64,000 bases of DNA. Origin: Branchiostoma floridae. Taxonomy: Eukaryota; Chordata; Leptocardii; Amphioxiformes; Branchiostomatidae. A program made the translations under genes and the position numbers. The stretch covers positions 2,721,516-2,785,515 of the forward strand of contig NC_049996.1 of the NCBI RefSeq assembly GCF_000003815.2, in the 5' to 3' direction. The notes beneath the pieces were generated by a model. The model saw only the letters and a program-made list of their open reading frames with translations, was not told the origin of the DNA and did no database searches. Positions within the stretch are counted from its first letter, which is position 1. Every line of letters begins with the position of its first letter. This document shows positions 3,411-53,842 of this stretch, piece after piece.

Positions 3411-3419
3411 AAATTTTAG

Positions 3420-4359: not shown

Positions 4360-4391
4360 TCAAGGAGGTTGAAAGAGGGAAACCTCCTTGA
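4360..4391. repeat. perfect 11-bp hairpin with a direct repeat
   Basis: TCAAGGAGGTT (4360-4370) and AACCTCCTTGA (4381-4391) form a perfect stem with a 10-nt loop. GATCTACTCAAGGAGGTT occurs twice, at about 4353 and 4390, so the hairpin lies inside a short direct duplication. Function unknown. Confidence 0.7.
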
Positions 4392-5386: not shown

Positions 5387-5447
5387 GAGAACAAAGCCTA
5401 AGCCTGGATACTAGCTATAGCCTCGTAATATTAGCCTTTGTTCTCTC
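5387..5447. repeat. imperfect inverted repeat, 16-bp arms
   Basis: AGAGAACAAAGCCTAA and TTAGCCTTTGTTCTCT are inverted copies with one mismatch, about 30 bp apart. This could be a very small MITE remnant. No target duplication is evident. Confidence 0.5.
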
Positions 5448-6620: not shown

Positions 6621-6753
6621 GCGGTGGTAGTCTAAACCGAGGATGAGAGCCAAGGGACTGGCAGCAAACCCTCCTGTCCAGACGCAGACCAACTGAAGGA
6701 ATATAGGACCACGTCAATCTAGTGGGAAAGGTGAACAGTCTATATTAGAAACT
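6621..6753 (+). other. leader of the zinc-finger gene 2 main exon
   Basis: The exon begins after TTTAATTAG, a splice acceptor matched at 2071-2081 and 11031-11040. The leader is homologous to the first 49 codons of zinc-finger gene 1, but the matching frame is closed by TAA where gene 1 has GAA. It is therefore 5' UTR here, or decayed coding DNA. Confidence 0.6.
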
Positions 6754-8475
6754 ATGAGGAAACCAAGTGCGAAAGGAAAAAGAGGGGAGAAAATGAAGAA
6801 TCACATCTGTCCGCACTGTAAGTACTGTACGGGAAATGCGGCAAATTTGAGAGATCACATCAGGACTCATACTGGTGAGAGACCATACAAGTGCCAGCAT
6901 TGTGACTATTCTACAACATACAAGGCGCATCTGAAGCGCCACATCGCGGCGAAACACAGTAACTACAGGCCGCACAAATGTCCAACATGTGATTTTACCG
7001 CGGTGGACAAAACCTGTTTGAAAAATCACGTAGCTAAGCACAGCAGTGAGAAACCTTACAAATCTGATATCTGTGGGTACAGTGCAACACAACTGTCATA
7101 TCTAAACCGTCACATGGCTAAACATTCTGGTAAGAAAACACACACGTGTGACATTTGTGGTTATAGTACCGCACACCTGACAAATTTGAAACGTCACATG
7201 GCTAAACACACCGGTGAGAGACCTTACACATGTGACGTTTGTGGGTATGGTACAGTACAACTGTCGAATTTGAAACGGCACATTATTGGCCAACACTCTA
7301 GCGAGAAGTCATACAAGTGTGGAGTTTGCCGTTACGTTACTTCACGAATGTGTGATTTAAAGAAGCATACCGAAATATGTGGTAATGGCACTTTGCGAAT
7401 GTCTGATGTAAAGCAGGACATAGCCAAACACACTGATGAGAAACCTTACAAATGTGACATTTGTGGGTTCGGTTCAGCACAGAAGTCAAATTTGAAACAG
7501 CACATCATGACCAAACACTCTAGTGACAAACCTTACACTTGTGACGTCTGTGGGTTCGGTGCAACACAAGTTTCAAAATTGAAAAGGCACATGGCTAAAC
7601 ACTCTGGTGAGAAACTTTACAAATGTGACATTTGCGGGTACGGTACCGCACACACGTCAAATTTGAAACGGCACATCATGGCCAAACACACCGATGAGAA
7701 ACCTTTCAAGTGCGATATTTGTGGGTACTGTACAGCAATAAAGTCAAATTTGGAACAGCACGTCATGGCCATACACACTGCAGGTGAGAAACCTTACAAA
7801 TGTGACATTTGTGGGTACGGTGCAGCACATGTGTCAACTTTGAAACGTCACATGGCTAAACACACTGGAGGACCTTACAAATGTGAATTGTACGGCTATG
7901 CCACTTCACGAATGTTTGATTTGAAGAAACACATAGCAACACATACTGGAGAGAAAACGTACAAATGTGATATTTGTGGGTACTGTACAGCACTTATGTC
8001 AAATCTGAAACGACACATTATGGACAAACACTCTGCCGAGAAGTCATACAAGTGTGACACTTGTGGCTATGCCACTTCTCGAATGTCTGATTTAGAGAAG
8101 CACATAGCCAAACATACTGTCGAGAAACCTTTTAAATGTGATATCTGTGGGTACGGTACAGTGGAAATGTCACATTTGAAACGGCACATTAGGGCCAAAC
8201 ACACTGGTAAGAAACCTTACAAATGTGACATATGCGGGTACGGTGCAGCACATCTGTCAAATTTAAAGCTTCACATTATAGACAAACACTCTGAAGAGAA
8301 GCCTTATAATTGTGAAGTTTGCGGTTATGGCACTTCGCGAATGTCTGATTTAAAAAAGCACATCGCCATACACACTCGTGAGACACCTTACAAATGTGAC
8401 CTTTGTGGGTTTGGTGCAGCACAGAGGACACATTTCAAACGGCACATGGCTAAACACAATGGTGAGAAACGTTAG
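6754..8475 (+). CDS. C2H2 zinc-finger protein 2 (about 20 modules, 16 intact)
   Basis: A 573-codon single-exon reading frame from a true ATG. After a ten-residue basic start it is an almost unbroken array of C2H2 fingers with GEKPYKCDICGYG-type units. About 16 of 20 modules keep both cysteines and both histidines. The module near residue 110 has YKSDIC (first Cys lost), two near 200-225 are truncated or fused, and one near 385 has CELYGY (second Cys lost). Histidine spacing alternates between three and four residues. The ATG aligns with the internal ATG of gene 1. It lies in tandem with genes 1 and 3 on the same strand. A nuclear DNA-binding role is expected from the family; target unknown. 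No KRAB, SCAN or BTB domain is visible in this exon. Confidence 0.85.
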   Translation: MRKPSAKGKRGEKMKNHICPHCKYCTGNAANLRDHIRTHTGERPYKCQHCDYSTTYKAHLKRHIAAKHSNYRPHKCPTCDFTAVDKTCLKNHVAKHSSEKPYKSDICGYSATQLSYLNRHMAKHSGKKTHTCDICGYSTAHLTNLKRHMAKHTGERPYTCDVCGYGTVQLSNLKRHIIGQHSSEKSYKCGVCRYVTSRMCDLKKHTEICGNGTLRMSDVKQDIAKHTDEKPYKCDICGFGSAQKSNLKQHIMTKHSSDKPYTCDVCGFGATQVSKLKRHMAKHSGEKLYKCDICGYGTAHTSNLKRHIMAKHTDEKPFKCDICGYCTAIKSNLEQHVMAIHTAGEKPYKCDICGYGAAHVSTLKRHMAKHTGGPYKCELYGYATSRMFDLKKHIATHTGEKTYKCDICGYCTALMSNLKRHIMDKHSAEKSYKCDTCGYATSRMSDLEKHIAKHTVEKPFKCDICGYGTVEMSHLKRHIRAKHTGKKPYKCDICGYGAAHLSNLKLHIIDKHSEEKPYNCEVCGYGTSRMSDLKKHIAIHTRETPYKCDLCGFGAAQRTHFKRHMAKHNGEKR

Positions 8476-8780
8476 AATTGAGACAATTATGTTAGTTGTA
8501 CCATACACATGACACATTTGAAACGTAAAATGGCTAAACACGCTAGTGAAAAACCTTACAAATGTGACATCTGTGGGTACGTCACAGTGCAAATGTCAAA
8601 TTTGAAACACTTTGCCGAGAGGTCCTACAAATGTGACACTTTCGGTAATGTCACTTCGCGAATGTCTGATTTAAAGACACACTATGACCTCAAAACTGTA
8701 AAGTGTGAAGATGTGTGTCCATATATGCAGCTTCGAGAATGTTTGATTCACTGCTGTCAGCTTGTCATGATATGATGTCA
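8476..8780 (+). pseudogene. relic zinc fingers 3' of gene 2
   Basis: Past the stop the finger pattern continues: MTHLKRKMAKH, then KPYKCDICGYVTVQMSNLKH, then KCDTFGNVTSRMSDLK, with lost ligands and frame breaks. It shows the coding array was once longer and was cut at a linker codon. Confidence 0.8.
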
Positions 8781-8904
8781 CTGTAGTTACAGTACCCAAT
8801 AGGCTATTCGTCAATTGTACAACAGATTTTTAGAGACTTAGTAACATAGGCATTTGTAGATTTGACAATTCTCACAATGCTATGATATGCAAATGCTTAA
8901 AAGC

Positions 8905-8963
8905 CTGTATGTTACGCCGAAGGGTGATTATTCATTAATTATACCGGCTATATATTAAATACG
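8905..8963 (+). mobile_element. short diverged tail of the CR1-like LINE
   Basis: TGTTACGCCGAAGGGTGATT followed by TATACCGGCTATATA resembles the 3' end of the CR1-like LINE at 28021-28929 (TGTTACGCCGAATGGCGG, TATACCGACTATATAGATAC). Only about 60 bp remain. Confidence 0.55.
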
Positions 8964-9531
8964 TATGTTATCCCATATTGTTTACATTGTAGAATTCTGA
9001 AGTTTGTTGTAGAACATGCGAAAGCCTTTGTACATTTTGTTGTGTCATAAAAATACATGTTTACTTGTTTGGATAATGGCTTTGATCCAACAGTTTGTAA
9101 TTTATGGAATGAATGAAACGAATGCGACTCATTTATAATGTCCTTTTGCCGAAGATTAAGAAAAATTGACAATTAAAGGTTATCATATACTACACTTTGT
9201 GATTGTGATTTGTTTATCATATCAGAAGCAGGGTAAATAGTTCATTTCATGTATGCGAACTTCAATGTGTATTTTTTGTGACATACTGCACTTAACCGCT
9301 GGGGGCGCTGTAAACCCAGTGCGTCTCGTGAAAGTTGCTAAGCACTGGAGGACCCGAAAAAGCTACCCCGGTCTTTATCTACTTCAAGGTATTTCCATAA
9401 AACATCCATTCATCCACACGGCGGGTGTCACGGAGGTTGATAAGTACTTGAGGGTCTTTGTATTTTTTCAAGGCCTACCCACATACCAAATGTCATCGCA
9501 AAGCCACCCATTCACGCAAACAGACAGACAA

Positions 9532-9634
9532 ACACACACACACACACACACCCCACACACATACACACACACACACACACACACAGTGACAGACACACAC
9601 AAACAATACGCACTCTCTCTCTCTCTCTCTCTCT
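9532..9634. repeat. CA and CT microsatellite
   Basis: Interrupted (CA)n from 9532 to about 9604, followed by (CT)n to 9634. It lies in a 3' flank paralogous to 13880-14150, where GGGCGCTGTAAACC and AAGGCCTA..CCACATACCA recur and a CA array follows at the same place. Confidence 0.95.
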
Positions 9635-9764
9635 GATACCGGTACCCCCCCTCACATGTAGCGAAAATCGATCGGACGACGGGTCTGCAACCTCCAAATT
9701 ACAAGGAGGCATGACCCTGTCGGGAAGGGGGGGAACGCTACAATTTCTTCGTGGGCATCAGGGT

Positions 9765-9766
<2 letters not shown>

Positions 9767-9809
<43 letters not shown>

Positions 9810-9998
9810 TCACACACGTACACACGTACACACAAACACACACATACACACATACACACACGTACACACACACACAAACACACAAAAATACACACATACA
9901 CACACGTACACACACACACAAACACACAAAAATACACACATACATACATACACACACAAACACACACACAAACACACACAATCACACTCAGACACACA
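9767..9998. repeat. long interrupted CA microsatellite
   Basis: About 230 bp of (CA)n with ACGTACAC, AAACACAC and ATACACAC interruptions. Reading frames across it on either strand are artefacts of the repeat. Confidence 0.97.
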
Positions 9999-10129
9999 TA
10001 CAGACATTTGAGATTTGAAAAAATGGCGGCACTGGTCTGACCTTAGATCTACGTCACCTGTGGCTTTTCGAGTCAGGGATTACTAGTAATACTACAGCGC
10101 CTCCGGATGTTAACACGACAAGTTAGACC

Positions 10130-10525
10130 GGTTTTGCGCGACCTCACTATTATAGTTGTTTGTCTCATGAAAGTGCATCGCCATAGACGGAAGTGACAAA
10201 TCTACACTTCAAAACGGTAAGGTAAGATCTTCAACGCTGTCGTCCATATTGTCTTAAAGTTTGGAGAATGCTTACTGTACAGATTATAAATCTTAAAGGA
10301 GTGAAGGAAAGTATTCTGTCACCGTTAAACGAGCCTGAAAAGCTGGACAAAGAAAGTTCTTATACGTAGTCATTATCTTGTTTTAGAAAGCATGTAGACT
10401 GGGTGCCATTGTATATCCTCTGGTGGCTCTCACGATTACATTTTCTTCACGAAGCGGTAGAAAATAAGATGGCTGTAGAAGCTAAAAAGCATGTAGTGAT
10501 TGCTATCAATACTGTGTAACAGGGA
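10130..10525 (+). other. conserved block upstream of zinc-finger gene 3, possible 5' exon
   Basis: About 300 bp here resemble 14360-14660: GGTAAGATCT, GTCGTCC, GACAAAGAAAGTTCTT, ACGTAGTCATTAT and AAAGCATGTAGACTGGGTGC are shared in order. AACGGTAAGGTAAG at about 10214 could be a splice donor of a leader exon whose acceptor is at 11040. Coding content is not convincing: the two copies do not keep a common open frame. Confidence 0.45.
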
Positions 10526-11040
10526 CTAGGAGGGGTCCAATAAATTAAAGAATATCCCTAACCCATTTTTTGCTATTGTAGAAGACTGAACCTGCACATG
10601 TAACAATCTGCATATCTTTATAAGCCACATGCTTATTGTCAACTCTGAAATCCGATCAGTTTTTATGTTTTCGTTGCTGATGTGTAGTGAGGTATAAGAG
10701 GTCGTCAGGGTCATGAGATTTTGCAGTGTGTTGATTAAGTTTCTGTAACCTACTTTCCCATTAATATTAAACTAAGATGACTCAGATTTTACACACTTCT
10801 TGACCTTTAACAGTTTCAACAGTTTCAGAGTCCAAAGTTTCAACGATATAGTCATCTTGAAATTAAATCGTTCCCAAAAAAAATGATGAACAAAAACTTC
10901 AATCTCAAGATATTTGTGTATACAATTGTGCCTAATTTCTGTTCATCCTCTTAGAATAAAAAAGCCTGTTATGAAAACACTTGCATTACATTTTTGACTC
11001 ACCCTCGTATTCCTTTGTCACAATGTTGTTTAACAATTAG

Positions 11041-11594
11041 GTGGTGAAAGTCGAAACGACAGAGTCAAGCTGCAGAGTGTAAAGAGGCATTGGAAAAGAA
11101 CATCACGTCACTCTAATCGGGAAGGAGAACATTCTACAACTACGAGGAAAGCAAGTGCGAAAAGAGCAACATGGGGAGAAAATAAAGAAACGCGTTTGTC
11201 CGTTACTGTGAGTATAGAACAGAAAATGCAGCAAATTTGAAAGAAGATCGCATCAGGACTCACACCGGTAAGAGACCATTGTGACTATTCTGCATCACAA
11301 AAGAGTCGCCTGAAGATACTCATCACTTCTACATACACCGGTGAGAGACCATCATGCGTGACGCCAAATTTGAAACGGCACATCATCGCAAAAAAACCTA
11401 GAGAGCAGTCATACCAGTTTTAAAGAACGCTTGCAGATAGGTGTGGCAGGTTGTTCGGCGTAATATAACCAGCTGCTGCCGCGCCGCGTGCCTGCGGAGC
11501 TGGTGTGTTACGCCGGCGGTTATACGGGCTATATAGATACAGATACAAGTGTGAGGTTACGTTACTACACGAATGTTTGATTTAAAGGAGCACA
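11041..11594 (+). pseudogene. decayed 5' part of zinc-finger gene 3
   Basis: After the conserved acceptor TAACAATTAG the leader and first fingers are recognisable (CGTTTGTCCGTTACTGTGAG, CATCAGGACTCACACCGG) but shifted in frame several times. The start codon of genes 1 and 2, in ACTATGA, is ACTACGA here, so the ATG is lost. A CR1-like LINE tail is inserted at 11415-11541 exactly in the TCATACAAGTGTG of a finger. Confidence 0.85.
11415..11541 (+). mobile_element. CR1-like LINE 3' tail, extreme 5' truncation
   Basis: About 125 bp matching the 3' end of the LINE at 28021-28929: TTTTAAAGAACGCTTGCAGA, TATAACCAGCTGCTGCCGC, GTGTTACGCCG, then a GATACAGATAC tail. The interrupted finger reads TCATAC before and AAGTGTG after, contiguous in gene 2 at about 7309-7321. 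Confidence 0.9.
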
Positions 11595-11654
11595 TTGAGA
11601 AACGCTGATGAGAAACCGTACAATTGTAACCTGTGTGGTTATAGTACGGTAAGA

Positions 11655-13157
11655 ATGTCCAATTTGAAACGGCACGTGGCAAAACATACTACCGACAAAC
11701 CATACAAATGTGACATTTTCGAGTACGGTGCAACACAACTGACAACTTTGAAAAGGCACGTTTTGGACAAACACACTGCACAGAAGTCCTACAAATGTGA
11801 AGTTTGTGCGTATGTTACTTCGCGAATGTTTGCTTTAAAAAGGCATAGCGCTATACACACCGGTGAGAAACCTTACAAATGCGATATTTGTGGGTTCAGT
11901 TCAGCACACATGGCAAATTTGAATCACCACATTAGGGCCAAACACTCTAACGATAAACCTTACAAATGTGATGTCTGTGGGTACGGTGCAACACAACGGT
12001 CAAATTTGAAAAGGCACATTATGGACAAACACAGAGAGAAGTCCTATAGATGTGAACATTGTGGCTATGCTACTTCACGAAAGCTTGATTTAAAAAGGCA
12101 TATTACCACACACACCGGTGAGAAACCTTACAAATGTGATATTTGTGGGTTCAGTTCAGCATACATGGCAAATTTGAAACAGCACATCATTGCCAAACAC
12201 ACTAACGATAAGCCTTACAAATGTGTTGTCTGTGGGTACGGTGCAACAAAACGGTCAACATTGAAAATGCACATTATGGACAAACACAGAGAGAAGTCCT
12301 ACAAATGTGAACATTGTGATTATGCTACTTCAAGAATGCTTGATTTAAAAAGGCATATTGCCAAACACACCGGTGAGAAAACTTACAAATGTGATATTTG
12401 TGGGCACGGTGCAGTACGAATGTCAAATTTGAGACAACACATCATTACCAAACACACTGGTGAGAGACCTTACAAATGTGACATCTGTGAGCACGGTGCA
12501 GTAGGAATGTCAAATTTGAAACAACACATCATCGCCAAACACACCGGTGAGAGACCTTACAAATGTGATATTTGTGGATATTGTACAGCGCGAGCGTCAC
12601 ATTTGAAACGTCACATGGCTAAACACACCGGTGAGAGACCTTACAAATGTGACAGTTGTGGGTACTTTGCAGCTCGAATGTCAGATTTGAAACAGCACAT
12701 CATTGCCAAACACACCGGTGAGAGACCATACAAATGTGACATCTGTGGGCACGGTGCAGTACGAATGTCAACTTTGAAGCGGCACATGGCTAAACACACC
12801 GGTGAGAGACCTTACAAATGTGACAGTTGTGGGTACGGTGCAGCTCGAATGTCAACTTTGAAACAGCACATCATTGCGAAACACACCGGTGAGAGACCTT
12901 ACAATTGTAATATTTGTGGGTACCGTGCAGCGCGAATGTCAACTTTGAAACGGCATATGGCTAAACACACCGGTGAGAGACCTTACAAATGTGACAGTTG
13001 TGGGTACGGTGCAGCTCGAATGTCAACTTTGAAACAGCACATCATTGCGAAACACACCGGTGAGAGACCTTACAAATGTGATATCTGTGGGTACTGTGCA
13101 GCACATATATCAAATTTAAAACGCCACATGGCTAAACACACCAGCGAGAAAAGTTAG
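11655..13157 (+). CDS. C2H2 zinc-finger array 3 (18 modules, 17 intact; 5' end lost)
   Basis: A 500-codon frame from the first in-frame ATG; it is open back to about 11595 but with no ATG. Eighteen finger modules follow each other with TGERPYKC or TGEKPYKC linkers. One early module reads CDIFEYG (second Cys lost); the rest keep all four ligands. Several late fingers are almost identical, pointing to recent internal duplication. The array has stayed open although its 5' end is broken, so it is either a recent pseudogene or is expressed from another start. The frame ends at a TAG in a linker tyrosine position, and finger relics continue to about 13385. The gene lies in tandem with genes 1 and 2. 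Confidence 0.65.
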   Translation: MSNLKRHVAKHTTDKPYKCDIFEYGATQLTTLKRHVLDKHTAQKSYKCEVCAYVTSRMFALKRHSAIHTGEKPYKCDICGFSSAHMANLNHHIRAKHSNDKPYKCDVCGYGATQRSNLKRHIMDKHREKSYRCEHCGYATSRKLDLKRHITTHTGEKPYKCDICGFSSAYMANLKQHIIAKHTNDKPYKCVVCGYGATKRSTLKMHIMDKHREKSYKCEHCDYATSRMLDLKRHIAKHTGEKTYKCDICGHGAVRMSNLRQHIITKHTGERPYKCDICEHGAVGMSNLKQHIIAKHTGERPYKCDICGYCTARASHLKRHMAKHTGERPYKCDSCGYFAARMSDLKQHIIAKHTGERPYKCDICGHGAVRMSTLKRHMAKHTGERPYKCDSCGYGAARMSTLKQHIIAKHTGERPYNCNICGYRAARMSTLKRHMAKHTGERPYKCDSCGYGAARMSTLKQHIIAKHTGERPYKCDICGYCAAHISNLKRHMAKHTSEKS

Positions 13158-15273: not shown

Positions 15274-18200
15274 ATGAAAGCCATAACATGGGGAACTGCA
15301 CTCGTGACCGGTTTGCTGATCATGGTTTCAATGACGGTATGTTTCTTTTCACGTTGCTATGGCTATAACAATATCTCAATAGAGTTATGTAGAAGATTTT
15401 CATGTTTAGATACGTATATAATTTGTTAGATACGATTTTCATTCTCTGGACAACTTCTGTTATTTGGGTAGAAGAAAGATGATCAACTGATGATACATGT
15501 CGTGCAAATGAGGACATAGTTTGCATAACCAATGAGCAACCTTGTCTTGCGTAAAGGTTAACACCATTTTCAAAAGTCGTGAGGTCGTGGAACTCTTAGT
15601 TTCGTAATTGGAACGTACAGGATTTATTGAATCACCATTACATACGAGTATATCAAGAAATGCTTCTATATTGTTCTTATTATGTCATACAGGAGTGGCG
15701 AGCATTTTATCAACGATTTATGACTTGGGGCCAGTACACTACAGACTATCAGGGTGTTCCAAAACCAATGGTGTCCAAACTTCGCCTCATCCAGCCACCA
15801 GTTCAACGTTGCCTTTTCAACTATTCTATCCACTTCGACCAGACCACGTACCCAACCTACACGGAGGTTGTCGTCTTAAACAGGGACCGCCTGTATCGCA
15901 AAGGAGACGTCCTTACCGTCAAGGTGGTGGCAAGAGACAAGAAAAGAAGGCTGAAGACGTACGGAGGAGACTTCTTCCGTGCCAGACTGGTCAGCAGTGA
16001 CCGTTCGCTACAGGCCAGTAGTGCCGGTCACGTCACTGACCACTGTAACGGTACCTACACAGTGAAGTTCCAGCTCTACTGGGTAGGAGGCGTTTCGGTG
16101 AGTCCGGAAAACTGCAAATGGTTGTATTTTTGGCGACGCCTCAGAAGCGTGCCTAATAGTATAGTTTGCGACCGTTTGACAATTCACAAAATCTCGGGAA
16201 TTTTTCTCCAGGCGTGTAAAGTTGCATCATTCCCTTAGAGGGGAATAACTCGGGAATGGGTTCTATAACAAAACATTGCAAAACATTACAAATTCCTCTG
16301 AGTACATCTTCCTTTGACATATTTTGCAACTCAAACATAATTCATCGGAAACGCCAGGTTTTTCAAAAGCTCTTGTTTTACATCAGATAAAGATCCAGCT
16401 TGTCCATCCAAGCGAGGCAGTTAGGATTCTGCAGAGCTTGCAACAAGTTCCCAACAAGAAAGACTACTATTGCATCTTCGGTGACCTAAAGACCAAGGGC
16501 CAGTATACACAGCAATGCTTCAGCTCTAACAACCCCAGCTTACCACCCCACAGAAAGTGCGATTTCTCCAAACCAGAGGCAAACGGTACCTGGATTTGTG
16601 AGAAACCGGAGAAACTACCGTGTTCCGCCATTACCAAGTGCCGATGTAGTCCAGATCTAAGGAGGGTACTGGGCCTTGTGTCTCAAGAGGAAATAAAACT
16701 TTTCCAAAAGTAAGTCCTTGAGACATTTTCCACCAGGGCAAAGGTCACTTACCAACGCATGCGCAGAGGGTCTATTTTGAGTTTTTTTTCCTTGTATGTG
16801 TTGGTATTTTGGAGCTAGATGTTTCAGTTAATTACTGTTGGCATTTTATCATGATCGAAAAACATAGGCGACAGACGATCACCGAAACGTTGGAAGAATA
16901 TATATAAAGAACGCCTGGTTGTGTATAAAGAATGCTTTTATTCAGTGACTTACAACTTGACGAAGTAATTTAAGAGAGCTTTCTGTGCCACACAGGCCAT
17001 ATCTTGAGACGGAACTTGAAGTAGACCCCAAGGAACCCATACGAGTCCTTGAGACAGAACTGTCCACACCAGAACACCTTCCAGCGTGTACCGGGAACAC
17101 GCGTGAGTCCGGAGCTTCGCTGGGACATTGGTCAGGCAAGGTGTGGAAGTCAGCTGTCTGTTATGTCCGAGTCTTCACTAAGGAAGACATCCGGCAATGC
17201 CTGGCTAACAAGACCGTGTATATACACGGTACGTGCCATTAGTGGTGTAGTTCATTACCCGTGTTCATTACATTTGCCAGGACGATTATGCTCTTGTGAT
17301 ATGCATAACTCGAGAAGTATTGGACAGATCTTTATGATATATAGCATAGATGTTGACAAAGGTAAAAACGTGAGGATTGCCCAGGGTAGACGTTACCATT
17401 CAATACCAATTTGGTTTATTGATTACAAAACAAGGGTCAGCTTTCTTATTTTGCATTATTAATCTATCTTGGATAGATCTTTATGCTGTTTAGCATAGAT
17501 GTTAACAGAGGGAAAAAACGGAAAGATTGTCCAGGGTAGACGATACCATTTGGTTCATTGATTTAAAAACAACGGTCAGTTTTCTCACTTTGCCTTACTA
17601 ATCTATTCTAGTTGAATCTAGTTTTTGTTCAGCTAAAACTGAATTACTGCCAACATATATATTTCTATCCTTTTACCAGGTGACTCTACCGTTAGACAAT
17701 GGAGTGAGCGTTTGGAGAATATAGTGCCGCTGTACTACGATAAAAGAACCGCGGATTCACCAGGTTTGTCGATCTATTCTAAAAGTCGTCTAAGATATGA
17801 TGTTCTAACAACTCTCTGACACGCGTTAACAATTAGGCAACATGTAAAACCATCACTTGAACGCCTTCCAACCCTATCCAGACTGGGGGTTGGGGGGGGG
17901 GGGGCTAAAAGTGCCTACGCCAACTTTGACGTCGTATAGCTCCCAAACGGCTTGTGCTGGAACAATCAAACTTTGTGAAATTTCCTAGAATATTGTTGGC
18001 GACAATTTTGAAAAAAAAGAGAGCAAGTTTATAATTTTTCGTGTTGCCATGGCAGCGGGTATCTGAAAGGCAAAAATCACTAATTTTGGTTTAAAGAACT
18101 GGATTTTAAGATTTTCTTGCTAAACTTAACTTCTTTTCATATATCTTTAATATCGAACACATCTTAGTTGAACATTTATGATTAAATATTCATAAATTAT

Positions 18201-19954
18201 GATAATGAGATGACGTAATTGGTCAAAATCCAAGATGGCCGACAATATCATGATGAAAAGTATAACCAGCTAATTTTCACTTTGATTTCATCACTACTTG
18301 GTCTTTTATTACAGAAAACATTCATGTGAACGTTTTCAATCTTTTTTCATTGGTTTTTAGCGTTATATGTTGAAAAAAATGTATCATAAGGCATTTAAGG
18401 TTGATAATCCAAGATGGCGGATAGCTAAACTACAGATGACGTCATTTTATGACGTCATTTTGACGTCGTTGCGTCGCTTTCTGACAACAGAAGTCTTCTA
18501 ACACTTAAACATTGATAAGAAACCTTTATTGGTAACTTTTTGTGTAAGATATTTAGGTATTATGGGTATTCCCCGTTTGAGCCAAATAAATTAATTAATG
18601 GCGTCCTAATTACGCCATATTACGTCATAGTGATGTAAACCATTCAGAAATTACGTCAAAATTCAACATGCCGGCTCCCAAAATTCAACATGGCGGCTCC
18701 CATACATGCCAGCAAAGGCATTTTAACTAGTCTATCTCTCATACTCGACTACAGACAAGGATCTACATGGTAACGNNNNNNNNNNNNNNNNNNNNNNNNN
18801 NNNNNNNNNNNNNNNNNNNNNNNNNNNNNNNNNNNNNNNNNNNNNNNNNNNNNNNNNNNNNNNNNNNNNNNNNNNNNNNNNNNNNNNNNNNNNNNNNNNN
18901 NNNNNNNNNNNNNNNNNNNNNNNNNNNNNNNNNNNNNNNNNNNNNNNNNNNNNNNNNNNNNNNNNNNNNNNNNNNNNNNNNNNNNNNNNNNNNNNNNNNN
19001 NNNNNNNNNNNNNNNNNNNNNNNNNNNNNNNNNNNNNNNNNNNNNNNNNNNNNNNNNNNNNNNNNNNNNNNNNNNNNNNNNNNNNNNNNNNNNNNNNNNN
19101 NNNNNNNNNNNNNNNNNNNNNNNNNNNNNNNNNNNNNNNNNNNNNNNNNNNNNNNNNNNNNNNNNNNNNNNNNNNNNNNNNNNNNNNNNNNNNNNNNNNN
19201 NNNNNNNNNNNNNNNNNNNNNNNNNNNNNNNNNNNNNNNNNNNNNNNNNNNNNNNNNNNNNNNNNNNNNNNNNNNNNNNNNNNNNNNNNNNNNNNNNNNN
19301 NNNNNNNNNNNNNNNNNNNNNNNNNNNNNNNNNNNNNNNNNNNNNNNNNNNNNNNNNNNNNNNNNNNNNNNNNNNNNNNNNNNNNNNNNNNNNNNNNNNN
19401 NNNNNNNNNNNNNNNNNNNNNNNNNNNNNNNNNNNNNNNNNNNNNNNNNNNNNNNNNNNNNNNNNNNNNNNNNNNNNNNNNNNNNNNNNNNNNNNNNNNN
19501 NNNNNNNNNNNNNNNNNNNNNNNNNNNNNNNNNNNNNNNNNNNNNNNNNNNNNNNNNNNNNNNNNNNNNNNNNNNNNNNNNNNNNNNNNNNNNNNNNNNN
19601 NNNNNNNNNNNNNNNNNNNNNNNNNNNNNNNNNNNNNNNNNNNNNNNNNNNNNNNNNNNNNNNNNNNNNNNNNNCTCATGCGCAGGAGTCCCGGCACGCG
19701 AGTTTTCGTGAGAACTGGAACAACGCGAGAACACAAGGGGGGAAAGTTGGAGTACTACCTGCTACATAGCGACTGGATGGCTTACCAGATCACGGAGGTG
19801 ATACGAGAAATATTCCGGGAGGATCCAGGACGTGGTTTTGTTGGACACGTGGGACATGAGTGTTTGTCAGCCGGGGGAAGACCACGTTCATCCTGATCAA
19901 ACAATGGTGGACAATCTACTTAACAGGTTGTTGTCTCATATATGCCCAAACTAA
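15274..19954 (+). CDS. NXPE family protein A (six exons, last exon gapped and frameshifted)
   Basis: Exons: 15274-15336, 15693-16097, 16387-16709, 16996-17228, 17680-17763, and a last exon whose visible part is 19675-19954. All junctions are GT-AG and keep frame. Exon 1 codes a short hydrophobic signal-anchor. Exons 2-3 code the neurexophilin-like domain (KGDVLTVKVVARD, YGGDFFRARLV, NGTYTVKFQLYW, IQLVHPSEAV). Exon 5 opens with GDSTVRQW, the serine motif of the PC-esterase domain. NXPE proteins are secretory-pathway or Golgi proteins; human NXPE1 has been linked to sialic-acid O-acetylation, but the activity of this copy is unknown. The first part of exon 6 lies in the N run 18776-19674. One extra G at about 19829, against NXPE-C, shifts the last 40 codons and ends the frame at 19896, losing the C-terminal DxxH. 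Confidence 0.75.
17764..18775. other. NXPE-A intron 5 with unclassified repeat DNA
   Basis: AT-rich intron with repeated CAAGATGGC or CAACATGGCGG motifs (about 18231, 18410, 18685) and clustered GACGTCAT motifs near 18437-18470. This mix resembles the interior of diverged TIR elements, but I find no clear ends. It runs into the gap at 18776. Confidence 0.4.
18776..19674. other. sequence gap (N)
   Basis: 899 N. By comparison with NXPE-B and NXPE-C it must hold the acceptor and first part of NXPE-A exon 6. Reading frames spanning it are meaningless. Confidence 0.99.
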
Positions 19955-21129
19955 GAGGTTTGAACGGGAGGGTCTTTTTAGCGAATGCCCACAAACGCCC
20001 ACTCTAGAGAAGTCCGCGCTGCACGAATCTCATTTTTTTTGCTTGGAATATGTCCACGTTGTGCTCCCATGTATTAATCCTGAGTTTCAAGTCAGTCCAT
20101 TGACCAGAAGTGACATAAATCAAAGTTTTCGATTCTCGATGGTCTTTTTAGCGAACGCCCAGCAAAATGTCTTTTTAGCGAATGCCCAGTACATCCACAA
20201 AAATATCGGCCGTCGCGCAACGACACCTAAACCTACCGCCACAAACATGTTCAAGATGGTGTCCCATTGATGTGTACGGAGTTTCCATGCTTTACAAGCA
20301 TTTTAAGTCCCTGTTTTTGGTCAAAATGTACGGCGACGATACTACCATACTTTAACTATAGCAATTCAAAATGGCGGGCACTAGTCATGTGACCTCCTTG
20401 CGGGACTGTTCTATAAGTATCGCGGAAGGGACTGTTGTAGCATAGCTTCTCATACAACCATTTTAGAGTGAATTCTGAACAAGATTTTCATTTCATAGTG
20501 CTATCATCTGACTGATATTTACAATGTGGTCATTTTTTCTGTGCTATTATTACCCAGGTTTGAGGAACTTAGTGCAAATTTGGATATTGATTCACCTCAG
20601 TGCCCAATTAATGTACAAAAGGCTCAGACACATTAGTGTTATAAACCTGAATAGGGGCAGGTAACCAATACTAGAAAAACATAGCTATTTATTATTAACA
20701 ATACTATTTACATTATAATAATAACTCTTCACCAAACTGGACTTTTCTTATCTTTATTTATCACAGAAACATTGTTACAATGAGGATTTGATTAGATGAG
20801 TATCTGTTACAGTGTGTACAAACTTATTTCAAATACAAAAATGTATTTCGTTTCACTTCCTAAATATTTTTAAATTATTGGAAGAAGTTGACACATAAAC
20901 AATATTAATTGCATTATTTATGTGCAGTAAAATGTGACCACATGCTATCAATAGCCTAATAAAATGTTGGAACATGGCACAATCAGGCTCCTCTTCTGAG
21001 TACAGAAAGGAAATGTTTTATAACATTTAGTTATGACGTAGAAAATTTCAATTGTAAAATATACCTTTATTAACATTTACAAACAAATTGTTTTTTTCTC
21101 TTCTTAATAAATGACAACAATACAAGTAA

Positions 21130-22232
21130 GTAAGGTGTGTTTCCTTTCATAACAGGCCAGGTAAGACGCCGTATAGGTGAGTAAGGTATGTTTCCTTTTA
21201 TAGCAGACCAGGTAAGACACCGTACAGGTGAGTAAGGTGTGTTTCCTTGACTACAGACTAGGTAAGACACCGTACAGGTAAGTAAGGTGTGTTTCCTTTT
21301 ATAACAGACCAGGTAAGACACCGTACAGGTGAGTAACGTGTATTTCCTTTGATTACAGACCAGGTAAGACACCATACAGGTGAGTAACGTGTATTTCCTT
21401 TGTTCACAGACCAGGCAAGACACCGTACAGGTGAGTAACGTGTATTTCCTTTCATTACAGACCAGGTAAGACACCGTACAGGTGAGTAAGGTGTGTTTCC
21501 TTTTATAACAGACTAGGTAAGACACCGTACAGGTGAGTAACGTGTATTTCCTCTGATTACAGACCAGGTAAGACACCATACAGGTGAGTAACGTGTATTT
21601 CCTTTGATAACAGGCCAGGTAAGACACCATACAGGTAAGTAAGGTGTGTTTCTTTTTATAACAGACCAGGTATGACACCGTGCATGTGAGTAACGTGTAT
21701 TTCCTTTGATTACAGACCAGGTAAGACACCATACAGGTGAGTAACGTGTATTTCCTTTCATTACAGACCAGGTAAGACACCGCACAGGTGAGTAAGGTGT
21801 GTTTCCTTTGTCTATAGACCAGATAGGGTATTACACAGGTGAGTAAGGCGTCTTTCCTTTGCCTATATACCATATAGGCCATTATACAGGTGAGTAAGGC
21901 GTCTTTCCTTTGCCTATAGACCAGATAGGGTATTATGCAGGTGAGTAAAGCAACTTTCCTTTGCCTGTAGACCAGATAGTGTATTATACAGGTAAGTTAG
22001 ATGTCTTTCCTTCGCCTATATACCAGATGGGGCATTATACAGGTAAGTAAGGTGTCTTTCCCTTGTCTATATACCAGATAGGCCATTATACAGGTGGATA
22101 AGGTGTCTTTCCTTTGCCTATAGACCAGATAGGCCATTAAACAGGTGAGTAAGGTGTCTTTCCTTTGCCTATAGACCAGATAGGCCATTACACTGGGAAG
22201 TAAGATGTCTTTACTTTGCCTATAGACCAGAC
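21130..22232 (+). repeat. 51-bp tandem array, left arm of the foldback element
   Basis: About 21 units of 51 bp. Each contains a pyrimidine run ending in CAG or TAG, 21 nt starting ACCAG, then GTGAGTAA. Because 51 is 17 codons, frames stay open on the minus strand and give a 17-residue repeat; I treat that as an artefact. Two sub-families occur: ACCAGGTAAGACACCGTACAG inside 21130-21800 and ACCAGATAGGCC types after it. Confidence 0.9.
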
Positions 22233-22911
22233 NNNNNNNNNNNNNNNNNNNNNNNNNNNNNNNNNNNNNNNNNNNNNNNNNNNNNNNNNNNNNNNNNNNN
22301 NNNNNNNNNNNNNNNNNNNNNNNNNNNNNNNNNNNNNNNNNNNNNNNNNNNNNNNNNNNNNNNNNNNNNNNNNNNNNNNNNNNNNNNNNNNNNNNNNNNN
22401 NNNNNNNNNNNNNNNNNNNNNNNNNNNNNNNNNNNNNNNNNNNNNNNNNNNNNNNNNNNNNNNNNNNNNNNNNNNNNNNNNNNNNNNNNNNNNNNNNNNN
22501 NNNNNNNNNNNNNNNNNNNNNNNNNNNNNNNNNNNNNNNNNNNNNNNNNNNNNNNNNNNNNNNNNNNNNNNNNNNNNNNNNNNNNNNNNNNNNNNNNNNN
22601 NNNNNNNNNNNNNNNNNNNNNNNNNNNNNNNNNNNNNNNNNNNNNNNNNNNNNNNNNNNNNNNNNNNNNNNNNNNNNNNNNNNNNNNNNNNNNNNNNNNN
22701 NNNNNNNNNNNNNNNNNNNNNNNNNNNNNNNNNNNNNNNNNNNNNNNNNNNNNNNNNNNNNNNNNNNNNNNNNNNNNNNNNNNNNNNNNNNNNNNNNNNN
22801 NNNNNNNNNNNNNNNNNNNNNNNNNNNNNNNNNNNNNNNNNNNNNNNNNNNNNNNNNNNNNNNNNNNNNNNNNNNNNNNNNNNNNNNNNNNNNNNNNNNN
22901 NNNNNNNNNNN
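22233..22911. other. sequence gap (N) near the centre of the foldback element
   Basis: 679 N inside the repeat core. The true length of the element's centre is unknown. Confidence 0.99.
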
Positions 22912-22984
22912 ATGAATAACCGCAGCTCACCCCTTGTGCGTTTCCTTTGCCTATTGACCAGATAGGTATTAAACAGGTGAGTAA

Positions 22985-23410
22985 AGCAACTTACTTACCT
23001 GTATAATGCCCTATCTGGTCTATAGGCAAAGGAAAGACGCCTTACTCATCTGCGCGGTGTCTTACCTGGTCTGTAATCAAAGGAAATACACGTTACTCAC
23101 CTGTACGGTGTCTTACCTAGTCTGTAGTCAAGGAAACACACCTTACTCACCTGTACGGTGTCTTACCTGGTCTGTAATCAAAGGAAATACACGTTACTCA
23201 CCTGTACGGTGTCTTACCTGGTCTGTAATGAAAGGAAATACACGTTGCTCACCTGTACGGTGTCTTACCTAGTCTGTAGTCAAGGAAACACACCTTACTC
23301 ACCTGTACGGTGTCTTACCTGGTCTGCTATAAAAGGAAACACACCTTAATTACCTGTACGGCGTCTTACCTGGCCTGTTATAAAAGGAAACACACCTTAC
23401 TTACCTGTAT
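22985..23410 (-). repeat. 51-bp tandem array, right arm of the foldback element
   Basis: About eight inverted copies of the same 51-bp unit. The left array has more than twice as many, so the arms differ mainly in copy number. The turn from plus to minus orientation is at about 22985-22995. Confidence 0.9.
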
Positions 23411-24649
23411 TGTTGTCATTTATTAAGAAGAGAAAAAACAATTTGTTTGTAAATGTTAATAAAGGTACATTTTACAATTGAAATTTTCTACGTCATAACT
23501 AAATGTTATAAAACATTTCCTTTCTGTACTCAGAAGGGGAGCCTGATTGTGCCATGTTCCAACATTTTATTAGGCTATTGATAGCATGTGGTCACATTTT
23601 ACTGCACATAAATAATGCAATTAATATTGTTTATGTGTCAACTTCTTCCAATACTTTAAAAATATTTAGGAAGTGAAACGAAATACATTTTTGTATTTGA
23701 AATAAGTTTGTACACACTGTAACAGATGTACTCATCTAATCAAATCCTCATTGTAACAATGTTTCTGTGATAAATAAAGATAAGAAAAGTCCAGTTTGGT
23801 GAAGAGTTATTATTATAATGTAAATAGTATTGTTAATAATAAATAGCTATGTTTTTCTAGTATTGGTTACCTGCCCCTATTCAGGTTTATAACACTAATG
23901 TGTCTGAGCCTTTTGTACATTAATTGGGCACTGAGGTGAATCAATATCCAAATTTGCACTAAGTTCCTCAAACCTGGGTAATAATAGCACAGAAAAAATG
24001 ACCACATTGTAAATATCAGTCAGATGATAGCACTATGAAATGAAAATCTTGTTCAGAATTCACTCTAAAATGGTTGTATGAGAAGCTATGCTACAACAGT
24101 CCCTCCCGCGATACTTATCGAACAGTCCCGCAAGGAGGTCACATGACTAGTGCCCGCCATTTTGAATTGCTATATTTAAAGTATGGTAGTATCGTCGCCG
24201 TACATTTTGACCAAAAACAGGGACTTAAAATGCTTGTAAAGCACGGAAACTCCGTACACATCAATGGGACACCATCTTGAACATGTTTGTGGCGGTAGGT
24301 TTAGGTGTCGTTGCGCGACGGCCGATATTTTTGTGGATATAGTGGGCATTCGCTAAAAAGACATTTTGCTGGGCGTTCGCTAAAAAGACCATCGAGAATC
24401 GAAAACTTTGATTTATGTCACTTCTGGTCAATGGACTGACTTGAAACTCAGGATTAATACATGGGAGCACAACGTGGACATATTCCAAGCAAAAAAAATG
24501 AGATTCGTGCAGCGCGGACTTCTCTAGAGTGGGCGTTTGTGGGCATTCGCTAAAAAGACCATGCGGGTTTGAACAGGCCGCATGTCTATTGTTATTTACT
24601 CGTTAAAGTATACTGTAATTCGTATTAAATTGAAACATGTTTCATAATT

Positions 24650-24812
24650 GCCAAACACACCTGTGAGAAACCTTACAAATGTGCTATTTGTGGTTATTGT
24701 GCAGTGTGAAGGTCGCACTTGAAACGGCACATGGTTAAACACACTAGCGAGAAACCTTAGAAATGTGACATTTGTGGGAATGGTTGGGGAATTGGTACGG
24801 TCGAAAAGATTG
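24650..24812 (+). pseudogene. zinc-finger relic, copy 1
   Basis: Two finger modules remain: GEKPYKCAICGYCAV-stop, RSHLKRHMVKHTSEKP-stop, then KCDICGNG. They continue into a 3' flank that resumes after the TIR element at 31526. Stops include TAC to TAG in a linker. Confidence 0.85.
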
Positions 24813-32515: not shown

Positions 32516-35500
32516 ATGGAAGCCATAACTTGGAGAGGGGCTGCCGGCGTGACGATCATGATTTTCCTGACGGTATGTTTCTTTTTACGTTGCTTTTCAC
32601 GTTGCTTTGGCTAATTATTAACATGTCTTGTTCAAGCCATACGCCACAGGCAGACAGGACGGAAGTGCTGGAAACAGTTGGTTCTTCCTTATTTTTTATT
32701 CTCCACTACACACTGTAGTGCTCAGCCGTAGGTTTTGGTTACTGACAGACCATTGTGCTGTACCAGGGATAGTACATTTCTGCTGGCTGTAGGTTTATGT
32801 TACATGTGGGCTAGTATATTGTGCCAGGGATAGTGTGACAGGGAAGTTTCAGTCGATTTCTGATTTGTGCTGTATTATTGTTCACCTCAATCGTCGTCAT
32901 GGCAATAATATTCTTATTGCCAGTCTTGTTGTTCTTGTTATGTCATGCAGTCGTGGTCGGTTTTCTATCAACGATATAAGTCCTGGGACTCCAACCATCG
33001 GGATGTTCCAAAACCGATGGTGTCCAAACTTCGCCTCATCCAGCCACCAGTTCAACCATGCCTCCTCAACCAGTCTCTCTTCTTCGACCAGACCACGTAC
33101 CCAACCTACACGGAGGTTGTTGTCTTAAACAGGGACCGCCTGTATCGCAAAGGAGACGTCCTTACCGTCAAGGTGGTAGCAAGAGATAAAGAAGGAAGGT
33201 CGAAGACGTACGGAGGAGACTTTTTCCGTGCCAGACTGGTCAGCAGTGACCGTTCGCTACAGGCCAGTAGTGCCGGTCACGTCACTGACCACTGTAACGG
33301 TATCTACACCGTGCAGTTCCCGCTCTACTGGGTAGGGAACGTTTAGGTGAGTACAGATCACAATGTTCTACGATGTTAAACTGTTCTGTGCATGTTGTTG
33401 CATAGAAGGTTGTTATGATGATAAGAAGGTTGTGTTTTCGTGCGTGTGTGCTTACCTGCTTGTCTGTCTATGAGCAGCATACCTCGAGAAGTCGTGGGTG
33501 GATCTTGGTGGTATTTGGTATGTTGGTACGGAGTTAGCAAATGGAAGAAACTATTGGTTTATGAGCTCCCGTCTAGCGACTTTCCGTGGTACTGCAGCAG
33601 AATCTCTGGTCCTCTGCTTGTAACGCACAGGTAAAACATTTTACGCCATCGTCCATTTTCCCCCAAAGTATCTGAGAATGTTGCGCAGATGTCTTGATAT
33701 GCGTTTCATAGCGACATATGCTACTGTTGTCTTGCCAAAGACGTAAATATCTCTTCATTCCGTCAAGTACTTGACCTCACCATATCAAGTTGTTTCGTTG
33801 TAAATAATTCTATAACAGGACCAATATGAAAAACATTACAGCTTTCCCTTTGTAAATCTCCTTCCATATTGTAAATGCAAATCTAACACCATGCATCACA
33901 CTACGCAAGCTTTTTCAAAAGCACTTGTTTTACAGATAAAGATCCAGCTTGTCCATCCAAGCGAGGCAGTGAAGGTTCTACAGAGACTGCGACAAATTCC
34001 GAACAAGAGAGTCTTCTACTGCAGATTCGAGGACAAGTCCAAGTCCAAGTCAAAATCTACACAGCAATGCTTCAGCTCTAACAACCCCAGCCTACCACCC
34101 CACCGACAGTGCGATTTCTCCAAACTAGAGGCAAACGGAACCTGGATTTGTGAGAAACCGGAGAAACTACCGTGTTCCGCCATCACAAAGTGCCAATGGT
34201 ACTTTAAGGGCATAACAAGGGTACTGGGCTTCGTGTCTGAAGCGGAAAAGAAACTTTTCAAAAAGTAAGTTTTTGTGACGAATTTTGGTAAATTTCTTCT
34301 TTATCTTGTCTCATCGATTATTCAAATAAGGCTGGGATGAACACATTATATTTTTTCTTCTCTACCAAAATATAAAAAAAAATGTGTAAAAATCCGATCC
34401 TTTGGTAGAATTCCATATTTCATCTTGAATGATCAACGAATGACGTTCATATTTGCATAACACATGCATAGTGATATACATCTATAACTAACTTATATAT
34501 GTCACAAGTATGTAGTTCGCACACTTTTCGAAGGAATTGGGGCACGTTCACGTAAGACATGCAAATTAGACTCTAATTTGCATATTTGGCACATGTAAAT
34601 GTACCACCTGTCATAAAGAACCATTGTTATACGTATCAAATTTCCTACTATGGAAAACATTGGTATTATGTTTTTCTTATTGATTATGTACATCCATTCC
34701 TAATTTGCACAATTCCGGATCCCTAACGTTTGGTCCAGCATCTGGAAACAGCGACACCTATGCTGCAGTGCAGTATAAACCAGTTAGAATAGCCCTGAAA
34801 ATGGCGACACCAAAGCATGGATTGAATAAAGCACTTAATGCATTGTGTACAAAGAATTCAGAACTCAGAAATTTACCAACTTCTTAAAACTATTCACTAG
34901 AGTTTCGTGTGTACATGGTTAATTTTAACGTCCCCTGCCACACAGGCCATATCTTGAGACGGAACTTGAAGTAGATCCCAAGGAGCCCATACGAGTCCTT
35001 GAGACAGAACTGCCCACACCAGAACACCTTCCAGCGTGTACCGGGAACGCTTCGCTGGGACATTGGTCAGGCAAGGTGTGGAAGTCAGCTGTCTGTAATG
35101 TCCGAGTCTTCACTAAGGAAGACATCCGGCAATGCCTGGCTAACAAGACCGTGTACATACAAGGTATATATCAGTAGTGGACTACTAGTGGTAAGCAGTT
35201 CTAGAGTGCCAATACTATAGTTGCAATTCATTGGACGTATCTAGACTACAGTGTTCTCTAACTTTGGAAGATTACACTCTCATAGCTGTGATTGGCCGTT
35301 CGTGACAAGCTTGACTCGGGAAGGCTTAGATGGGCGTTATGATATTTGGTATGCTAACAGCTGAACATAGTCATTTTTATATTTTGCAAATGTTTAATGT
35401 ATTTTTCATATTATATTACAATTTTGAAAACTACATTTCCGTACACAAAATAAAGTGCTTACCAACAAGCTCTGATGCTTATCAAGTTGAAATGACCCAA

Positions 35501-36523
35501 AGCATAAATCACACATCCAGGTCGGAAGTGTGACGTCAGCAAAGTGTCAAAGGTGCTTGGCAGTTGGTAACGGCCCCCGTCTCGGTTGAGAGAAGATTGG
35601 TGTTTTTTTTGTTTTTTTTTTTTAATTTTAACATGTATTCCTATAACCTAGGTGACTCTACCGTTAGACAATGGAGCGAGCGTTTGCAGAAGGTAGTGCC
35701 GCTGAAAAAGGATGAAAGAGCTAAGGATTCAGGAGGTTTGCCTATCTTTTCTACATCTTCCAAAAAACTCTCTAGGACAGTTCTTTGTCTAACATCTGTC
35801 CTCCATGCGTTATCAAAGACGCAGCATGCAAATTTTTGCTCTGGATGCTTTCTTAAACAAAACCTTAAGGCATACAGATGGCATTTAACCCTGTTCATGT
35901 AAAACCAGGTTATTGCTCCGTGAAATTTGTCACTACCTGTTTTTCTACAACAGAGCACTCAAATGAGAACTAACCCTGCATTGGTACATTTCTGTTGCAG
36001 TTTTGCAAGTAGGAGACAACATGCAGTGGAACATCTCTGTTCGCTATCGGTTCCATCACCTTCCAATACAAACGAAAGCTTGGCACAATTTTTATGGCTA
36101 CCATTACACTGTTGATGAACTAGACGCCATCCAAGGAGGCCCGAATATGGTATTTATCGTTGGTCTGTGGGCTCACTTTACGAAAGAGCCGTTGGACATG
36201 ATCCGGTCCCGTCTGTACGCCATACGGGGCGCAATAGACCATCTCCTGCGCAGGAGTCCCGGCACGCGAGTTTTCGTGAGAACTGGAACAACGCGAGAAC
36301 ACGAAGGAAAGTTCGCGTTGGAGCACTATCTGTTAAGTAGCGACTGGCTGGCTTACCAGATCACGGAGGTGATACGAGAATATTCCGGGAGGATCCAGAC
36401 GTGGTTTTGTTGGACACGTGGGACATGAGTGTTTGTCAGCCGGGGGAAGACCACGTTCATCCTGATCAAACAATGGTGGACAATCTACTTAACAGGTTGT
36501 TGTCTCATATCTGTCCAAACTAA
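32516..36523 (+). pseudogene. NXPE family gene B (premature stop and C-terminal frameshift)
   Basis: Exons: 32516-32572, 32951-33346, 33936-34264, 34946-35163, 35652-35735, 36001-36523, all with GT-AG sites and the same phases as NXPE-C. Exon 2 ends GTT TAG before GTGAGT where C has GTT TCG, so the frame stops after about 150 residues. Exon 4 lacks 15 in-frame bases present in A and C. In exon 6 one A is missing in GAGAATATTCC (C has GAGAAATATTCC), shifting the end and losing DxxH; that frame stops at 36428. The GDST serine motif in exon 5 remains. If the stop and the deletion are assembly errors it would be a normal family member. Confidence 0.75.
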
Positions 36524-36609
36524 GAGGTTTGAACAGGCCGCATGTCTATTGTTATTTACTCGTTAAAGTATACTGTAATTCGTATTAAATTGAAACATGT
36601 TTCATAATT

Positions 36610-48238: not shown

Positions 48239-48268
48239 GACAACAAATGTCAATCAGAATTACTAATA

Positions 48269-53786: not shown

Positions 53787-53842
53787 GAGGTTTGAACAGG
53801 CCGTATGTCTATTATGATTTACTCGTTATGTAAGTATATTTT

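Follow-up and report, generated by a model that had tools for sequence, protein, structure and literature searches.

The 64,000-nucleotide stretch of the Branchiostoma floridae genome analyzed here (NCBI RefSeq assembly GCF_000003815.2, contig NC_049996.1, positions 2,721,516 to 2,785,515 of the forward strand; hereafter the window) carries three NXPE paralogues, called A, B and C, whose C-terminal frames all match NXPE4_C (E 1.8e-10 for copy A), and in copy A, by position in the 3' untranslated region, lies a large palindromic element. The preliminary description of this DNA had proposed a foldback transposon at 19957-24574, and this is confirmed by the inverted arms, the 9-bp target-site duplication and the existence of a multicopy family. 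The insertion thus stands; its bounds do not, as the element proper extends from 19966 to 24565 (4600 bp including 679 N, flanked by exact 9-bp GGTTTGAAC repeats) and its ends are not perfectly inverted, reading GGGAG on the left and, inward, CGCAT on the right. The features of the locus, in window coordinates, are these:

19952-19954, + strand: stop codon of NXPE gene copy A, 2 bp before the left duplication
19957-19965, + strand: target-site duplication, left copy GGTTTGAAC, present as a single copy in paralogues B and C
19966-19970, + strand: asymmetric terminal motif GGGAG of the A end, lying beyond the inverted repeat; it starts 19 of 19 other two-ended copies
19971-21119, + strand: left (A) arm, unique part, with three GTCTTTTTAGCGAA at 19972, 20142 and 20169
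21120-22232, + strand: left array of 51-bp splice-like units, 13 of type 1, then 9 of type 2
22233-22911: assembly gap of 679 N within the left array
22912-22989, + strand: remainder of the left array past the gap, in the left sense
22974-23001: head-to-head inversion junction CAGGTGAGTAAAGCAACTTACTTACCTG, the centre of the palindrome, shared by 16 of the 19 other copies
22990-23409, - strand: right array, about 8 units of 51 bp, type 1 outside and type 2 inside
23410-24560, - strand: right (B) arm, unique part, with three end motifs at 24349, 24376 and 24546
24561-24565, + strand: asymmetric terminal motif ATGCG of the B end, or CGCAT when read inward; ATGCG is shared by 18 of the 19 other two-ended copies, L026 having ATGCA
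24566-24574, + strand: target-site duplication, right copy GGTTTGAAC
36526-36534, + strand: empty site in paralogue B, one GGTTTGAAC with the same neighbouring bases
53789-53797, + strand: empty site in paralogue C, one GGTTTGAAC with the same neighbouring bases

Comparison of the two arms (19966-21122 with 24565-23409) shows 1143 of 1155 aligned bases to be identical, three of the 12 mismatches falling in the five outermost bases; when part of the arrays is included (19971-21540 with 24560-22991) identity is 96.7% over 1572 columns. Nearly the whole element consists of long inverted arms that contain repeats, a feature of the foldback class, and two different 5-bp ends outside one inverted repeat give it polarity. 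The end motif GTCTTTTTAGCGAA occurs in exact form six times in the window, always within the element and three times per arm (the nine other window matches need three mismatches, and 6.4 are expected in all at up to three mismatches); these thrice-repeated motifs are putative transposase binding sites. The repeat-built core reported earlier is real, and its structure can be corrected to two 51-bp arrays of opposite sense that meet head to head at about 22988 with no middle domain, the junction consisting of CAGGTGAGTAA, five bases and CTTACTTACCTG. As RNA, the stretch 22912-23110 is predicted to fold as a hairpin (z -9.2); a microRNA was considered at this place and rejected as an array palindrome, the four Rfam matches all being below threshold (21.7-33.4 bits compared with gathering values of 72-90; best E 0.00084). 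Long reading frames span the arrays because the period of 51 is divisible by 3. Six of the 35 element-overlapping open reading frames (ORFs) of at least 40 aa were scanned, of which five gave no match and a 308-aa array frame gave only sub-cut-off matches.

The target sequence GGTTTGAAC occurs six times in the window compared with 0.81 expected (none of 100 shuffles reaches six), of which two are the duplications themselves, two are the empty sites, and the remaining two (56340 and 57998) are unrelated. The bases adjoining the two duplications differ on either side, and the duplication is therefore exactly 9 bp. The uninterrupted sites downstream of copies B and C, which had been adduced as proof of insertion, are indeed present at 36526 and 53789. 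When the insert and one duplication are removed, the joined A flanks match paralogue B in one alignment of 8220 columns (98.36% identity, 62 mismatches, 73 gap letters) and paralogue C in a main alignment of 332 columns (91.6%). Because A without its insert aligns to the empty B at 98.36%, the insertion occurred after the A/B duplication.

The NXPE copies themselves are irregular. The last exon (19675-19954 in A, 36243-36523 in B and 53232-53786 in C) is open for 184 aa in C, and for 50 aa in A and 60 aa in B until the frame breaks; single-base gaps separate the A and B exons, which may be pseudogenes or contain assembly errors. A/B identity is ~80-90% in three upstream blocks (15671-17245 compared with 32929-35180) and 98.4% over 8.2 kb from the last exon on (19675-32.5k compared with 36.2k-44.4k), a contrast that could stem from conversion, from a tandem duplication of recent origin or from a haplotype entered twice in the assembly.

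The genome of which the window is a stretch (513,431,437 bases in 431 contigs) was searched with the outer 235 bp of the element, yielding 349 candidates, 40 of which were scored: the window's own arms account for two, a third matches at 99% and the remainder at 98%. Relative to the query, the right arm of the window copy aligns from base 6, and the other listed matches from base 1. A 21-bp end pattern, GGTCTTTTTAGCGAAYGCCCA, is matched 236 times in forward and 240 times in reverse orientation across the genome, 476 in all, compared with 0 + 0 for a backward-read control; as a typical full copy holds four such matches, 476 equals roughly 120 copies. Among the matches listed (100 places), 49 are outer ends, forming 21 pairs within 12 kb with a median length of 3993 (1868-9187). 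Twenty regions were read, 19 with both ends and one (L019) with a single end. The start GGGAGGGTC is found in all 19 two-ended copies, and the terminus GACCATGCG in 18 of them, with GACCATGCA in the other (L026); these copies were selected by similarity to the window's A end, GGGAG being part of the query, so that the constant B end is the less biased evidence. Exact 9-bp target duplications, each of a different sequence, flank 14 of the 19 other copies, and two more have a duplication of 10 bp (L021) or of 9 bp with one mismatch (L016). The preliminary description had proposed searching for the ends with their flanking duplications, and had named the lack of other copies sharing the ends as evidence that would count against it; the 476 end-pattern matches and the different 9-bp duplications of the 14 copies show the opposite.

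Between the window element and the other copies the unique arm agrees at 96-99% over most of its length, falling to 92-94% where agreement is lowest, and divergence from the column majority averages 0.82%, ranging from 0.09% (L023) to 2.06% (L024) in a sample that leans to young copies. Eleven of the 19 other two-ended copies are free of N, and ten of these have the same two arms and arrays. The N-free L017 (1001-2139) is a 1.1-kb hairpin derivative in which A arm 1-821 is joined to B arm 6-321, with neither array nor target duplication. L012 (2505-8915) has a third arm, whose 9-bp flank is the same as its neighbour's, beside a 1.6-kb gap; it looks like a haplotype or gap artefact of the assembly. 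Elsewhere, the 21-mer end pattern has no match in viral_contigs and one in genome_contigs, in a Parvibaculum metagenome-assembled genome, where 28 of 30 bases agree on extension; as this place is in an apparent bacterial terminator, and beyond single motifs nothing else of the element matches around it, the match was taken as chance.

The arms were compared in 17 copies (16 fetched plus the window's, 34 arms), with L011, L017 and L026 (rearranged or gapped), L019 (one end) and the third arm of L012 left out. Mean arm divergence within a copy is 0.85%, and between copies it is 1.46% (A-A), 1.58% (B-B) and 1.56% (A-B). Sixty variants occur in just two of the 34 arms, and for 49 of them these two arms belong to the same copy, compared with 1.8 expected and a maximum of 10 in 10000 random draws; an alternative count (no missing-letter limit, second-commonest base only) gives 44 of 55. 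L024 contributes 16 of the 49, the remaining 33 being spread over 12 copies. The number of arm differences is one each in L015 and L023, 15 in L018 and nine inner sites in the window copy. This pattern indicates that the arms of one copy homogenise each other, in part, and the sharing of variants within a copy shows arm-to-arm copying in that copy or in its source, either of which fits.

The centre of the palindrome was examined in 20 elements (19 fetched plus the window's) by searching for the junction within 6 substitutions. It is found head to head in 17, in the standard sense in 14 and reversed in three (L011, L021 and L024); it was not found in L015 and L027, which contain N, or in L017, which has no arrays, and the poorest matches are those of the rearranged L011 and L026 (4 and 6 substitutions). 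The sharing of this junction by 17 of 20 elements suggests descent from a single foldback ancestor. Array lengths vary among copies, and the longer side is A in 12 of the 14 standard copies (the exceptions are L022 and the rearranged L026) and B in the flipped L021 and L024, an exchange that inversion by arm-arm recombination would yield.

The 51-bp unit resembles a set of splice signals: type 1 contains CAG/GTGAGT, a pyrimidine-rich stretch, TTACAG, and ACCAG/GTAAGA. The left array contains 17 strict donors (MAGGTRAGT) on its + strand, and the stretch after the gap six on the - strand and one on the + strand, compared with two on both strands in the 58,085 window bases outside the element; the units are copies of one another, so that these donor counts amount to a single observation. 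Units that combine a strict donor with an acceptor appear in 8 of 20000 dinucleotide shuffles and in none of 6810 window 51-mers; two AGGTRAG together with an acceptor are seen in neither set. Introners have splice sites at or near the element ends, and the whole insert is spliced out; here strict donors occur only in the inner arrays, with none in the left arm. The arrays resemble mirages, tandem duplications of splice boundaries in lancelet genes, with units of 10-72 bp in Adh3 according to the part of that report consulted (PMC3087553), which are also treated in a second paper, likewise consulted in part (PMC3902484). As those portions present them, mirages share with the present arrays tandem units (tens of bp in Adh3), many with AG/GT signals, and an unstable copy number (PMC3087553, PMC3902484), and both the AG/GT-bearing units and their unstable number are observed here; they differ in being described in place at exon-intron boundaries, whereas the present array is in a mobile element with no known gene inside it, in two opposite arms. 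The resemblance of the 51-bp array to mirages is one of build.

The genome also contains candidates for the enzyme that moves the family. There are 27 matches to MULE transposase domains, all above cut-off and several in open frames of hundreds of residues, including L034 (the same place as L042) with FLYWCH and MULE domains. Two Phantom-type MULE elements, L041 (about 2993-7234) and L042 (about 1846-5830), are 97.5% alike over 3749 bp at two places; they have a long open frame, duplications of 10 and 9 bp, and asymmetric 7-bp ends (GAATGTC and GGAAGCA) outside a shared inverted repeat, GGACGACTCGGACC. In their 9-10-bp duplications and asymmetric ends outside the inverted repeat they are like the foldback family, from which they differ by ~350-bp inverted repeats (84%) of unrelated sequence, a long open reading frame and the lack of splice-like arrays. 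In the part consulted of a 2019 survey, MULE transposases are given as not detectable for B. floridae (PMC6446971); unlike that account, MULE elements with long open frames and 9-10-bp duplications are present here. Two further places, L030 (1003-3285) and L040, are 100% identical over 2621 bp and contain a long ORF that matches MULE, ZSWIM RNaseH-like and, weakly, FAR1/SWIM, with acidic repeats after these matches. In L040, TTTTAGCG is matched over eight bases, and such matches do not represent the end motif.

The preliminary description had also stated that no transposase is visible, which holds for the scanned ORFs, and had predicted an autonomous partner, which was not found among the long copies and MULE places examined. 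Scanning of 18 of the 30 window ORFs of at least 150 aa (including 21070-21996 and 53232-53786; the other 12 lie across gaps) revealed no DNA-transposon transposase. None of the 27 MULE matches is within 10 kb of the ends among the matches listed (89 entries, 81 distinct, eight being an end listed twice; these are only part of all ends), the nearest being 10,715 bp away. Among the four listed end pairs of more than 5 kb, the three that were read (L038, L039 and L043; the fourth is C2:29655009) include no autonomous copy, and each was taken to hold a nested insertion: a reverse-transcriptase ORF in the array of L038 (9.2 kb; RVT_1 E 4e-19), ORFs without Pfam match that resemble, by eye, RNase H and tyrosine recombinase in L039 (6.7 kb), and an insertion in the arm of L043 (5.1 kb). 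The element in the L038 array (2059-6801) has a 1188-aa ORF, and its end part is repeated (same frames at 2388-2873 and 6212-6697). An autonomous partner may well exist, since most ends are not among the matches listed.

That the inverted arm is an artefact of assembly is scarcely credible, even though the window copy has a 679-N core gap, 8 of the 19 other copies contain N, and rearrangement or repetition of flanks next to gaps is seen in L011, L012 and L026; both junctions are intact on either side of the gap at 22233-22911, the window arms differ at nine inner sites and 11 of the 19 other two-ended copies are N-free. It is very improbable that the arms are alike only through youth and descent from a source with nearly identical arms, with no copying between them. 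Mean divergence from the column majority is merely 0.82%, as such an origin would have it, and certain arm differences recur across copies (columns 610, 786, 811, 1104 and 1116), meaning that old differences persist; two-arm variants nevertheless fall within one copy in 49 of 60 cases where 1.8 are expected, the number of arm differences ranges from one in L015 and L023 to 15 elsewhere, and the centre is flipped in 3 of 17 elements. The recurrent differences do count against thorough homogenisation, and conversion is therefore only partial; also unfavourable is the flipped L011 (gapped and rearranged), whose longer side is at A, without exchange of array lengths. The splice-like arrays, for their part, might be functional, read-through transcripts in either orientation meeting sense donors and acceptors and splicing out part of the element, which would soften the harm of an insertion. 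The 17 strict donors on the + strand of the left array (two in 58,085 other bases), the rarity of donor-plus-acceptor units in shuffles (8 of 20000) and window 51-mers (0 of 6810), and the position of the copy in a 3' untranslated region are what such a role would lead one to expect. Among 318 type-1 and 160 type-2 units (L011, L017 and L026 left out), however, conservation in donor columns and in the rest is 0.938 vs 0.925 (type 1) and 0.926 vs 0.903 (type 2), and because donor columns are hardly better kept than others the functional reading is lowered and appears unlikely.

The element is best explained as a member of a recently active family of foldback DNA transposons, non-autonomous and probably moved by a transposase of Mutator/Phantom type that is made elsewhere; among possible movers this type is the most likely. 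Duplications of 8-11 bp, the range for Mutator (Phantom) in the part consulted of the 2019 survey (PMC6446971), flank 16 of the 19 copies, one with a mismatch, and short asymmetric ends outside sub-terminal inverted repeats are found here as in some members of that superfamily. Several observations weigh on the other side. The copies read were those most similar to the window's own end, which biases the sample towards young and similar ones, and three of the 19 (L011, L017 and L026) have no target duplication. No transposase with these inverted repeats was found, L041 and L042, read end to end, carrying other repeats; the 11-base TTTTTAGCGAA is absent from the ~3.3-kb stretches examined at 8 of the 27 MULE loci, as well as from three longer ones (8.5-9 kb) that surround MULE domains and overlap the places of those eight. 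Duplications of 9 bp also fit other superfamilies. Taken alone they fit Rehavkus as well (PMC6446971, in part), and it is a lesser possibility, though one to be kept in mind, that the mover belongs to Rehavkus or to an unknown superfamily with ~9-bp duplications, the Phantom-like asymmetric ends being coincidental. Rehavkus has, besides 9-bp duplications, a minisatellite before the 3' inverted repeat (PMC6446971, same part), and no MULE element with the present repeats was found at the places examined; against this, the ends of MULE elements in this genome are built in the same way, and the inverted repeats of Rehavkus are 26-400 bp long (PMC6446971, same part), compared with arms of >1.1 kb plus array here. 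A Rehavkus mover would be a PHD-finger transposase, and no transposase of any type was found for the present family at the places examined. The exact 9-bp duplications of 14 of the 19 copies do not agree with the P superfamily either. Its Galileo-type foldback elements have duplications of 7-8 bp.

A foldback DNA transposon moved by a Mutator/Phantom-type transposase has known relatives in kind. Tm1, from root-knot nematodes, is a Mutator/Foldback family whose duplications are mostly of 9 bp and whose asymmetric ends measure 7 bp, as given in the part of its description consulted (PMC3169594); like the present family it has composite inverted repeats with repeated motifs, duplications of 8-10 bp (mostly 9), mostly non-autonomous copies, and short asymmetric motifs between duplication and inverted repeat. 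In that same part, Tm1 has 13-15-bp repeats, non-repeat sequence between the inverted repeats and an identified MULE copy (PMC3169594); the family here, unlike Tm1, has arms of >1.1 kb and 51-bp units, its arrays meet without a middle, and no cognate transposase was found at the places examined. Tetris of Drosophila virilis, again from a partial view of the source (PMC4079207), is similar in that its outer flanking domain measures hundreds of bp, its inner domain is built of tandem repeats whose number varies, its duplications are of 8-10 bp and no transposase was found for it; it differs in its ~220-bp units and variable middle domain, where the present family has 51-bp splice-like units and one conserved head-to-head junction. 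As a kind, the element is known, being a foldback element, probably of Mutator type. As far as searched, the splice-like core without a middle domain and the cross-copy evidence for arm conversion and a flipped centre are new in detail. The earlier remark that such elements are little described in lancelets is in accord with the literature search (mostly open-access), which found no lancelet foldback paper, no paper on foldback elements with splice-bearing minisatellites and none on 'SOS splicing'; Repbase, outside its scope, may catalogue the family.

Elsewhere in the window, a cluster of C2H2 zinc-finger ORFs (442, 592 and 523 aa) occupies 2082-13157 on the + strand, and a two-unit C2H2 remnant lies directly after the element (24653-24784) and again in copy B. 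The interval 44499-49585 on the - strand contains ORFs resembling a non-long-terminal-repeat retrotransposon, with RVT_1 and zf-RVT (694 aa), Exo_endo_phos (484 aa) and, in a 438-aa ORF, a sub-cut-off CCHC knuckle; a 93-bp tandem duplication is present at 48415-48598.

A mechanism compatible with these sequence comparisons can be outlined. A Mutator/Phantom-type transposase made elsewhere would bind the thrice-repeated GTCTTTTTAGCGAA in each arm, cut at the asymmetric ends and insert with 9-bp staggers; the palindrome would then be repaired or recopied from itself, which would keep the arms alike, flip the centre now and then, and lengthen or shorten the arrays. The splice-like unit would be a mirage-type minisatellite captured in an arm of the ancestor, perhaps from an intron of a lost transposase gene. 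It is doubtful that mirages have here become mobile, the foldback spreading donor/acceptor arrays in both orientations and seeding introns or splice isoforms near or in genes. How lancelet mirages are generated was called unclear in the part consulted of the 2010 paper (PMC3087553). With 17 copies compared, the family offers a natural setting in which to examine how palindromic elements with long arms maintain the likeness of those arms, and if its splice-like core works in RNA, it would provide a link between foldback transposons and the splice-boundary minisatellites of lancelets.

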